From: Pseudomonas iranensis
Lineage (GTDB): Bacteria; Pseudomonadota; Gammaproteobacteria; Pseudomonadales; Pseudomonadaceae
Assembly (NCBI RefSeq): GCF_014268585.2
Contig: NZ_CP077092.1
Location: forward strand, 930,001 to 994,000
Direction of reading: 5' to 3'
DNA: 64,000 nt
In this document: positions 20,461-31,254 of the stretch, one piece after another
Layout: every line of letters starts with the position of its first letter
Position numbering within the stretch: position 1 is the first letter of the stretch
The notes under the pieces: model-generated
What the model was told of the DNA's origin: nothing
Seen by the model: the letters and a program-made list of their open reading frames with translations, nothing else
Databases searched by the model: none
Made by a program: the position numbers and the translations under genes

Positions 20461-20556
20461 GATTTTGATTGTTTAAATCTGTGTCTGATTTGCCAGAACC
20501 TTCCCACAAGGTTTTCAGGTTGTCCGTCGGACGTCGGGTCACTAGTCTCTGGCTGT

Positions 20557-20793
20557 CGCTGACAACTCAGCGGCCAGGTGTGGAAACCTGAAATTCAAGT
20601 AGTTGCTGTGCATTGCTACCGTAATCGTTGTCGGCGTGTTCGTTCGTCTGCAAACTGTGTCGCGGCGGCTGTGCGTGGGCAGACTTTGGTCTGGCCGGTT
20701 GCCTACTTATCGGTTTTCCACCCTGCGTACAGCTGCCACCTTTTGTCGTGTGGAAACGACAGAAGAGGGCGTCATAGCCAAGTAGGAGTTCTC
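20557..20793 (+). promoter_or_regulatory. Structured leader RNA of the first DUF6124 gene
   Basis: Helices read by eye, in order: P0 CGCTGA/TCAGCG (20557-20572); L1 CAGG-[TGTGGAAA]-CCTG (20575-20590); a 16-bp helix P2 (20664-20679 with 20722-20737, G-U pairs allowed); inside it P3 CAGAC-TTTG-GTCTG (20680-20693) and P4 CCGGT/ATCGG (20695-20713); then the single-stranded 7-mer TTTCCAC (20715-20721). Last comes L3 GTCG-[TGTGGAAA]-CGAC (20745-20760). The 7-mer is complementary to 7 nt of both loops. The RBS AGGAG and ATG follow 25-38 nt later. The same arrangement with different bases precedes the second DUF6124 gene. Confidence 0.75.
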
Positions 20794-21156
20794 ATGGACA
20801 AACTGATCCCAGACCCACCCCCATCCCCTACCACCCCGCTCGAAGACGCCATGCGCGCCGACGATCTTGTGAAAAACCGCGAAGCGATAAAACGCGCGCT
20901 CGATTTCTATCTCTGCCCCGAACCCGCAAAACCGCACCCGCCCAGCACGCTGTTCATGGTGGTGCCCAATGTCGATACCGAAAGCCTGTTGGCGCATGCC
21001 TGTGAGTCGCTGGCGTCAGCGAGTGCGATGGCGAGTAATTTCGCTGGCGAGTTGAGCGGGTTTCAGCGCAGCACGGCGTTGGCGATTCAGCAGATTGTCA
21101 TGCTGGCCGAGCTGGCGGTGAATCGGGCGCTGGATCGGGTTGATCCGCAGCGTTGA
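20794..21156 (+). CDS. DUF6124 family protein, first copy
   Basis: 120 residues from ATG 20794, with AGGAG 5-9 bp upstream. It starts with a Pro-rich segment (MDKLIPDPPPSPTTPLE), then an amphipathic helix ending in RALDFYL. The conserved core follows: PSTLFMV, LLAHACESLASASAMASNFA and IQQIVMLAELAVNRALD. The protein is soluble with no signal or membrane segment. DUF6124 is a pseudomonad family without known function; I assign it from remembered family sequences. A paralogue of identical length is at 30511-30873. The gene is preceded by the structured leader. Confidence 0.8.
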   Translation: MDKLIPDPPPSPTTPLEDAMRADDLVKNREAIKRALDFYLCPEPAKPHPPSTLFMVVPNVDTESLLAHACESLASASAMASNFAGELSGFQRSTALAIQQIVMLAELAVNRALDRVDPQR

Positions 21157-30088: not shown

Positions 30089-30142
30089 GCGGCTTCGCCG
30101 CGGGCAGCTGCGCTGCTTTGATGTTGATGTTGCTGTTGCTTT

Positions 30143-30475
30143 TGTGGGAGCGAGCCTGCTCGCGAAAGCGGCCTGCCAGCCGACCAATTTCTTCCTGATG
30201 TACATCAATCCTGTGGAAGCTGGCTTGCCAGCGAAGGCGGCCTGCCAGCCGACCTGTTTCTCGCTGATGTACTCGATTCAAACTGTGGGAGCGAGCCTGC
30301 TCGCGAAGGCGGCCTGCCAGCCAACCATTTTCTTCCTGATGTACATCAGTCCTGTGGGAGCTGGCTTGCCAGCGAAGGCGGCCTGCCAGCCGACCAATTT
30401 CTTCCTGATGTACATCAATCCTGTGGGAGCTGGCTTGCCAGCGAAGGCGGCCAGTCAGCCAACAACGCTCTGCCT
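30143..30475 (+). repeat. Five tandem REP units with alternating stem types
   Basis: TGTGG starts at 30143, 30212, 30284, 30353 and 30422 (periods 69, 72, 69, 69). Units 1 and 3 carry GCGAGCCTGCTCGCG; units 2, 4 and 5 carry GCTGGCTTGCCAGCG. The stem remains paired in both types. Spacers share GGCCTGCCAGCC and TTCCTGATGTACATCA motifs. This is not a CRISPR array, because the spacers are near-identical. Confidence 0.92.
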
Positions 30476-30510: not shown

Positions 30511-30873
30511 TCACTCCGGCACAAGCCTGTCCAGTACGCGGTTGACTGCCAGTTCGCCCAGCATGATCACCTGTTGTATTCCCAACAGGGAGCTGCGCTG
30601 TGGTCCATCGATAAATCCGGCGAGGTCGCTGGCCATGATGCTTGCCGAGGCCAGTGATTCGCAGGCATGGACCAACAGGGTTTCGTTGTCCGCAGCCGGG
30701 TCGACGATGAACAGGGTGCTGGGTTTGCGCGGTGCGCCGGGGTCTTTGATGAGGCGGGGGTTGAGGTAGTAATCGATGGCGCGGTCGGCGGCTTCCTTGA
30801 GTTTTTGCGCTTCGAGGAGCGGGTCGGCGAAAGTCGGATCGGCAAGGGGTGGATCGGGCGTTATCTTTTTCAC
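30511..30873 (-). CDS. DUF6124 family protein, second copy
   Basis: 120 residues from GTG 30873, chosen because AGGAG lies about 9 bp upstream and the length then equals that of the copy at 20794. The order of elements is the same: KKITPDPP start, helix ending RAIDYYLNPR, PSTLFIV, LLVHACESLASASIMASDLAG, and IQQVIMLGELAVNRVLD. A frame extending to 31128 would translate the structured leader and is not credible. Function unknown. Confidence 0.8.
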   Translation of the reverse strand: MKKITPDPPLADPTFADPLLEAQKLKEAADRAIDYYLNPRLIKDPGAPRKPSTLFIVDPAADNETLLVHACESLASASIMASDLAGFIDGPQRSSLLGIQQVIMLGELAVNRVLDRLVPE

Positions 30874-31094
30874 GGGCTCAGTCTCCTGATGGAGTAGGGC
30901 CGCAACCCGTTCGCGACTAAACGAAAGGGAGGCAGCTGCACGCAGGTTAGTCGACCGATGAGCCACGAAATCGGCGCGCCCGGAGGCGCCCTGCGCACAG
31001 CCACCATCAAGTGCAGGTATGCAATACCTGGCTGACAGGAACCTGTGCGTCGTGGACAAGCGGGCGACTAAACCCGACCACTGATGAGCAGTGG
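30874..31094 (-). promoter_or_regulatory. Structured leader RNA of the second DUF6124 gene
   Basis: On the minus strand, by eye: P0 CCACTG/CAGTGG (31094-31078); L1 CGGG-[TTTAGTCG]-CCCG (31076-31061); P2, 16 pairs (31005-30990 with 30946-30931, G-U allowed); P3 GCGCC-TCCG-GGCGC (30989-30976); P4 CCGAT/ATCGG (30974-30955); the 7-mer CGACTAA (30953-30947); L3 TTCG-[TTTAGTCG]-CGAA (30925-30910). The 7-mer is complementary to 7 nt of both loops. Order and spacing match 20557-20793 although most stem bases differ, which is compensatory change. Confidence 0.75.
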
Positions 31095-31254
31095 CAGGCA
31101 AACGATAGAACCCGCGCCCCAGGCGCACAAGCCGGCGGATTCTGGCGTAGCCGTAGGCAACGGCGCAAGGATTTGTGGGCTGTTGCGAGGTAACGGGGCG
31201 TGTGTTTAAACGGCTGGTTTAAAGCGCTGCGATAAATCGGTTGAATAGCCGAAC

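Follow-up and report, generated by a model that had tools for sequence, protein, structure and literature searches.

The window analysed here, a stretch of 64,000 nucleotides from Pseudomonas iranensis (contig NZ_CP077092.1), carries two copies of a structured leader, one on each strand, and each is followed by an open reading frame (ORF) of the DUF6124 family (PF19619). The initial annotation had described in each copy two identical hairpin loops and a free 7-mer complementary to either of them, and the letters and their positions proved to be as claimed. That description was incomplete, since it had not recognised a known RNA class and had missed a second code. Both copies are C4 antisense RNAs (Rfam RF01695; 69.9 bits for copy 2 and 66.1 bits for copy 1 against a threshold of 45 with the covariance model), with a c4-a1b1 target (RF03163) upstream. 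The free 7-mer is the a' strand of the C4 and its two loops are a1 and a2, the complementarity of a' to a1 and a2 being exact in both window copies. The features of the two leaders are as follows.

20542-20594, plus strand: copy 1 upstream target region (c4-a1b1), RF03163, 53.3 bits
20579-20586, plus strand: copy 1 a1 loop TGTGGAAA
20597-20602, plus strand: copy 1 b1, AAGTAG, directly behind a1
20658-20743, plus strand: copy 1 C4 antisense RNA, RF01695, 66.1 bits
20702-20708, plus strand: copy 1 b', CCTACTT
20715-20721, plus strand: copy 1 a' free strand, TTTCCAC
20749-20756, plus strand: copy 1 a2 loop TGTGGAAA
20780-20786, plus strand: copy 1 b2, AAGTAGG, overlapping the Shine-Dalgarno sequence
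20794-21156, plus strand: copy 1 downstream ORF, DUF6124 (PF19619), 90.2 bits
31057-31108, minus strand: copy 2 upstream target region (c4-a1b1), RF03163, 45.4 bits, E 4.7e-10, slightly below the gathering score of 46.7
31065-31072, minus strand: copy 2 a1 loop TTTAGTCG, complementary to a' by its letters
31050-31055, minus strand: copy 2 b1, CCACGA, matching the 5' part of the b' loop and paired with b' in the lowest-energy fold
30925-31011, minus strand: copy 2 C4 antisense RNA, RF01695, 69.9 bits (gathering score 45)
30959-30970, minus strand: copy 2 b', the hairpin 2 loop of the C4, with complementarity to b1 and b2
30947-30953, minus strand: copy 2 a' free strand, CGACTAA, corresponding to the stretch of 7 unpaired nt in RF01695
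30914-30921, minus strand: copy 2 a2 loop TTTAGTCG, by its letters
30887-30883, minus strand: copy 2 Shine-Dalgarno sequence, AGGAG
30875-30880, minus strand: copy 2 b2, TGAGCC, between the Shine-Dalgarno sequence and the GTG start
30511-30873, minus strand: copy 2 downstream ORF, DUF6124 (PF19619), GTG start, 84.4 bits

The order of elements, a1-b1-C4-a2-b2-gene, is the same as in the annotated record of phage P1, where the series a1, b1, c4, a2, b2 leads to the controlled gene icd. There the annotated a1 and a2 are both TTGACAG, and CTGTCAA lies within the C4. Both window copies have, in their sequence, GG at the 5' side of the C4 and GCC(A/T)CC at its 3' end. The isrK sRNA (RF01394) was also considered and rejected, its matches of 29.6 and 22.7 bits, which overlap a1b1, lying below the gathering score of 50. 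C4 RNAs, together with c4-a1b1, have been described from Proteobacteria and phages (PMC2864571). The genome itself (G000, a single contig of 6.07 Mb; modules are labelled with L-numbers and other genomes with G-numbers) holds 25 C4 matches, every one above the cut-off. A search of the literature, with most subscription papers outside its reach, found no title on Pseudomonas modules for "C4 antisense" with Pseudomonas, and nothing combining "C4 antisense", Pseudomonas and "paralog".

Reading the 25 modules of this genome revealed a second triple of complementary segments. Its C4 member, b', forms the loop of hairpin 2 and is complementary both to b1, located behind the a1 hairpin, and to b2, located at the Shine-Dalgarno sequence or immediately ahead of the start codon. 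In copy 1, b' CCTACTT is complementary to AAGTAGG at the ribosome-binding site, and in copy 2 the b' loop is split, with the 5' half TCGTGG pairing with b1 CCACGA and the 3' half GGCTCA pairing with b2 TGAGCC. The lowest-energy fold of the copy 2 leader has a1b1 paired in cis with a'b' (z -3.25), and that of the copy 1 leader has the C4 folded and a1 and a2 as free hairpins (z -3.63). The optimal folds of the two leaders thus happen to show both alternatives of the arrangement noticed at the outset, in which the strand can pair with either loop and not with both, and these predicted whole-leader folds fit two states.

Farther upstream lies a conserved stretch, at 31125-31225 on the minus strand for window copy 2 and in the corresponding position in most modules of this genome. 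TTTAAA(C) occurs about 180 to 227 nt before the C4 in 20 of the 25 modules, and AGAATCCGCCGGC is present in 16 of them. This conserved stretch looks like a shared promoter/operator, so that a common switch may sit atop the private brakes proposed below. A cluster of repeat elements (GCGAGCCTGCTCGCGAAGGCGG / GCTGGCTTGCCAGCGAAGGCGG) lies directly downstream of the copy 2 gene, at 30140-30470 of the window.

Tabulation of the 7-mers in homologous leaders, which the initial annotation had suggested as a check, showed that the three sites vary together. In this genome, the 25 C4 modules gave 47 exact 7-mer matches to their own targets out of 50; when C4s were reassigned to targets at random 10,000 times, the highest count reached was 20. 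When an exact 7-mer at a fixed offset was required, 117 of 142 modules had the code in their upstream target, 115 had it in their downstream target and 111 had it in both, and the 31 modules without an exact match at one target or more missed it, in many cases, by one mismatch or a shifted offset. In the control, which took ordered pairs of modules whose codes differ (19,248 pairs), the code turned up 167 times upstream and 66 times downstream. These 142 modules included 27 loci of the order and 48 other-genus modules, the latter biased to high C4 scores because they were taken from the best approximately 150 C4 matches, prophage-like ones among them. A 6-nt rule free of offset, applied to the modules of six genomes (and, from those 48 and 27 loci, to the ones located in these genomes), matched a' to both targets in 162 of 169 modules; in the other seven, a match of at least 6 nt was absent at one or both targets. 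Its control, pairs with different codes within one genome, gave 609 of 4950 upstream and 507 of 4950 downstream. Among modules related to copy 2, of which L171-L173 were seen to be syntenic with the window, a changes at all three places while b is constant or nearly so: a' CGACTAA goes with loops TTAGTCG (L171-L173 and L175), CTACTAA with TTAGTAG (L176) and CTGCTAA with TTAGCAG (L174 and L183). Lastly, a simple pattern search of 48 named loci found by their DUF6124 protein returned a matched triple in 31 and none in 17, and from these 17 it may be that some DUF6124 genes are without the module.

The second code behaves similarly within modules. A match of at least 6 nt to the own b2 was present in 121 of 142 modules and to the own b1 in 113 of 142. 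Swapped modules matched in 5789 (b2) and 4331 (b1) of 20,022 cases, numbers that are high because of common Shine-Dalgarno and stem letters, and the observed b2 count was never reached in 10,000 reassignments. The 7-mer had been taken to be private to each copy, and this had to be abandoned, as a codes repeat within one genome: only 14 distinct ones occur among the 25 copies, and the TTAGTCG of copy 2 is also found in a copy at 4945715. Over six genomes (25, 42, 42, 21, 22 and 17 modules by their C4 matches), the a code was common to 124 of 2599 same-genome pairs. The b code was common to 1 of the 2599 versus 77 of 11,597 cross-genome pairs, a contrast that we treat as suggestive because orthologues swell the cross-genome number, so that 77 versus 1 overstates it. 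The sole same-genome pair sharing b is a tandem in G005, formed by L077 (G005:C1:3628832-3628919) and its twin L078 with the same a and b code, and L077 is devoid of b2, Shine-Dalgarno sequence and start-codon segment. With the exception of this tandem twin, the b loops of the 124 a-sharing pairs of one genome are at least two edits apart; in the 754 cross-genome a-sharing pairs, 76 have identical b loops and 13 are one edit apart.

The same holds for modules whose proteins are similar. At a protein identity of at least 60% over an alignment of at least 80 amino acids, none of 88 same-genome pairs had a b loop in common, and all 17 pairs with proteins at least 90% identical differed in b (10 of the 17 being at 95% or above), although these are not 17 independent cases because members overlap. 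An ORF was assigned by rule in 112 of the 142 modules, and the pairs came from 91 of these, the genus set; among the 30 modules without a rule-based ORF, some have later starts, some ORFs of 42-58 amino acids and some broken or remote starts. These comparisons suggest that privacy rests on the second code b, which is nearly unique per genome; descent with no recent duplication would likewise leave the modules of one genome with different b codes. In computed duplexes, with scores that ignore target folding, the own downstream target (a2+b2) ranked first for 19 of the 25 C4s of G000, the worst rank being 3 and another module's downstream target scoring better for the other six. In G005 it ranked first for 31 of 42, with two C4s at ranks 26 and 33. 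Discrimination was weaker for the own upstream target (a1+b1), which ranked first for 10 of 25 in G000 and 15 of 42 in G005.

Leaders were also compared between the C4 matches of this genome and those of the near relatives G034, G033 and G355. In a strict set with both flanks syntenic (37 pairs at 13 loci, nine of which had at least two leader types), the pairs fell into two classes with none between: 17 pairs had leaders with identities of at least 0.90 (mean 0.983), exceeding those of their ORFs (0.939), and 20 had leaders at 0.49-0.74 while ORF and flanks were at 0.85 or above. A looser set of 70 pairs had leaders at 0.93 or above in 27, at 0.87 in two and below 0.80 in 41; three of the last (L016/L262, L008/L249 and L015/L258) are non-orthologous modules by ORF or promoter and are outside the strict set. 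Copy 1 and its counterpart in G033 differ over a block that starts within the hairpin preceding a1 and extends to the last base ahead of the ATG, bordered by 80 identical nt on the left and by 100 nt at 96% on the right. Edges were mapped in 14 of the 20 switched strict pairs. The left edge fell at -41 to -123 of the C4, and the right edge was at most 5 bases from the start codon in seven pairs, 12 and 23 bases past it in two and not placed in two. In the L005/L238/L261 set (three pairs with a shared), only a short block on the b1 side was distinct. Modules matching both of their own a targets made up 21 of 22, 20 of 21 and 14 of 17 in the three relatives, so internal matching is mostly preserved in the replacing leaders. 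As read from the aligned sequences, then, the leader up to the start codon was replaced by another internally matched leader, with gene and flanks staying in place. Point mutation in place is an unlikely source of new codes, given block replacement with both flanks intact.

Leader types did not follow relatedness at several loci. At the copy 1 locus, identity of the leader to its counterpart in the distant G019 is 0.90 (ORF 0.78, flanks 77 and 86%), against only 0.62 and 0.61 to those in the close G033 and G034 (ORF 0.95 and 0.96). At the L013 locus, G000 and G034 have a common type (0.99), with G019 at 0.86-0.87 and carrying the same a and b, and G033 and G355 have the other (0.98). The L011 locus has one type in G000, G033 and G355 (0.98-1.00) and another in G034 (0.50). 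The copy 2 leader is kept in both G033 and G034 (0.99-1.00). Recombination between lineages, long-kept alleles, or both would produce such cross-lineage alleles.

At the level of sequence, the fold family, the two complementary triples, the overlap of b2 with the ribosome-binding site, the coupled variation, the rarity of shared b codes within a genome and the replacement of leaders as blocks are established, and the most probable explanation, which we hold with good confidence, is autogenous antisense repression insulated by a two-part a+b code, the alleles of which are exchanged en bloc. Among the meanings proposed initially, attenuation insulated from paralogous leaders is thus the best supported, with the amendment that privacy comes from the b code and not from the 7-mer. 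Transcription from an upstream promoter would yield an a1b1-C4-a2b2-DUF6124 mRNA, from which the C4 would be released, as it is by RNase P in phage P1 (PMC5320573). Judging from the anatomy and from phage P1, a' and the b' loop would then pair with a2 and b2 at the ribosome-binding site and switch off the downstream ORF, DUF6124 being repressed in cis and/or in trans; the contact with b2 would act as an anti-Shine-Dalgarno, the most direct route to translational repression. In a second state, thermodynamically plausible and with a putative regulatory role, the upstream a1b1 would capture the C4 in cis instead. The a+b pair would serve as an address, and since paralogous modules within a genome carry different addresses, each brake would act on its own gene.

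A bolder extension is that this address is an allele of a self-recognition or incompatibility system, with a pan-genus pool of alleles, no more than one live copy of any allele in a genome, balancing selection across species and a cassette that moves between loci and ends at the start codon. We consider this a tentative possibility, with the odds somewhat against it; if true, a gene's brake would be replaced while the gene stays.

An alternative mechanism would be a purely cis-acting attenuator, in which a' and b' pair only within their own transcript, no free C4 exists and codes drift neutrally under internal complementarity. Cis pairing alone accounts for the three sites varying together, and the lowest-energy fold of copy 2 has this very pairing. 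Nevertheless, drift does not account for leaders that are either about 98% identical, above their ORFs, or replaced as a block, nor for the 17 same-genome pairs with closely similar proteins all differing in b. The C4 of phage P1, moreover, is a processed trans-acting RNA, and reads of C4-like RNAs in Acinetobacter baumannii are consistent with processing (PMC5320573). We therefore regard a purely cis attenuator as unlikely.

Ordinary gene conversion among paralogues is slightly less likely still. It would homogenise promoter and ORF and leave the leader behind, with no selection for distinct codes, and divergent leaders between alike promoters and ORFs are indeed found (e.g., L078/L088, with the ORF 100% identical over most windows). 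Likewise, 46 cross-genome pairs have the same leader, and in 15 of these the flanks are unlike, judged on about 1.2-1.5 kb (less at contig ends), so that rearranged orthologues may be among the 15. However, conversion tracts would carry the leader too unless selected against, and the 2599 same-genome pairs include no same-b copies both with intact b2 and start.

The insulated antisense repression favoured here would act mostly on a single protein family. The 25 C4s of this genome precede DUF6124 in 22 cases, DUF3077 in two and an ORF with no Pfam match in one, and the genome has 28 DUF6124 stretches, five of them with no nearby C4 match. By the copy 2 protein, the closest named relatives are Pseudomonas sp. 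CFBP13508 and P. siliginis. In a sample of 299 genomes from the phylum, DUF6124 was found in five, four of the genus (own included) and one with a weak match below the cut-off. Of the 40 genomes sampled from the genus, 36 had C4 matches (35 above the cut-off), ranging from 0 to 42 per genome and summing to 673; under stricter filters, 20 of the 145 genomes sampled from the order had them, and those not belonging to the genus carried 1 to 6 copies. An AlphaFold2 model of DUF6124 has three helices (mean pLDDT 79.6, pTM 0.50). A Foldseek search with this model returned nothing at E <= 0.001 in PDB or viral proteins, and we claim no function for the family for this reason. The literature search, with the coverage given above, likewise found no mention of DUF6124.

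Several loci depart from the usual arrangement. At G000:C1:50830-51250, a c4-a1b1 match and a DUF6124 gene have no C4 match between them, which is maybe a decayed C4. Two consecutive DUF6124 stretches follow one C4 (L019) at G000:C1:3968228-3969091. L005 (G000:C1:2226958-2227046) has matched a and b codes, yet no long frame starts behind its leader, and its DUF6124 frame looks interrupted. Elsewhere in Pseudomonas, some of the best-scoring C4s (L096, L097, L101, L102, L105, L107, L110, L115 and others) precede a similar ORF of 52-57 amino acids and then additional small genes, and these probably represent the module in a prophage form.

Among 50,697 phage records searched by tblastn with the copy 2 protein, a single one contained DUF6124, at its edge (EU982300.1:58-399), perhaps host DNA adjoining a prophage, and no plasmid record contained it; within these phage and plasmid records there was thus no sign of the guide-like mobile RNA that had also been suggested. 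The immI operon of P1/P7, in which C4 is followed by icd and the antirepressor ant, was rejected as a description of these loci, given the 22 of 25 C4s that precede DUF6124. That the modules are prophage remnants, with C4 still serving superinfection immunity and DUF6124 a phage gene, is most improbable: C4 is the immunity RNA of P1/P7 and the C4s with a short ORF and small genes behind them look prophage-like, but DUF6124 is nearly absent from phage and plasmid records and the 22 DUF6124 genes behind C4s are scattered over the chromosome.

If insulated antisense repression is correct, a phage immunity RNA has been turned into up to about 40 parallel antisense brakes per cell, each with a readable two-part address. 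The orthogonality of many near-identical antisense regulators becomes directly testable, and the modules would be ready parts for orthogonal RNA control. They also give a starting point for understanding DUF6124, a Pseudomonas family with no known role that we could find. Should the allele pattern hold, this would be an unusual regulatory RNA code under selection of the incompatibility or recognition type.

The antisense RNAs of plasmid incompatibility recognise their targets through specific loops, which differ between coexisting replicons. The modules described here are alike in their loop-specific antisense recognition, although incompatibility governs plasmid replication and here chromosomal paralogous genes are concerned. 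IsrK-orf45-anrP of the Salmonella prophage Gifsy-1 is similar in that the leader pairs with a downstream segment and alternative structures set translation (PMC4825925), but it is a single locus, and the two window copies score below the isrK gathering score of 50; the main text of that paper has neither "C4 antisense" nor "C4 RNA". The Group 1 C4-like sRNAs of A. baumannii AB5075 come close, with 21 in one genome, a variable a' and reads that fit RNase P processing; PMC5320573, in its section on these RNAs, leaves open what they target, whereas in the present set most C4s are flanked by a matching target on either side and adjoin a downstream gene. The C4 of phages P1 and P7 has the same fold and the same arrangement of a'/b' with two target pairs, a1b1 and then a2b2, and there too b2 lies at the ribosome-binding site of the gene that follows. 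Cross-reaction between P1 and P7 is stopped by a 4-nt change in a' and its targets (Citron & Schuster 1990, cited in PMC5320573). In phage P1, C4 lies upstream of icd/ant, in an immunity operon under C1 (regulation described in PMC8198154), and here it is mostly upstream of DUF6124. Unlike in P1/P7, there are 25 copies in this genome (up to 42 elsewhere), with different addresses that are exchanged en bloc.
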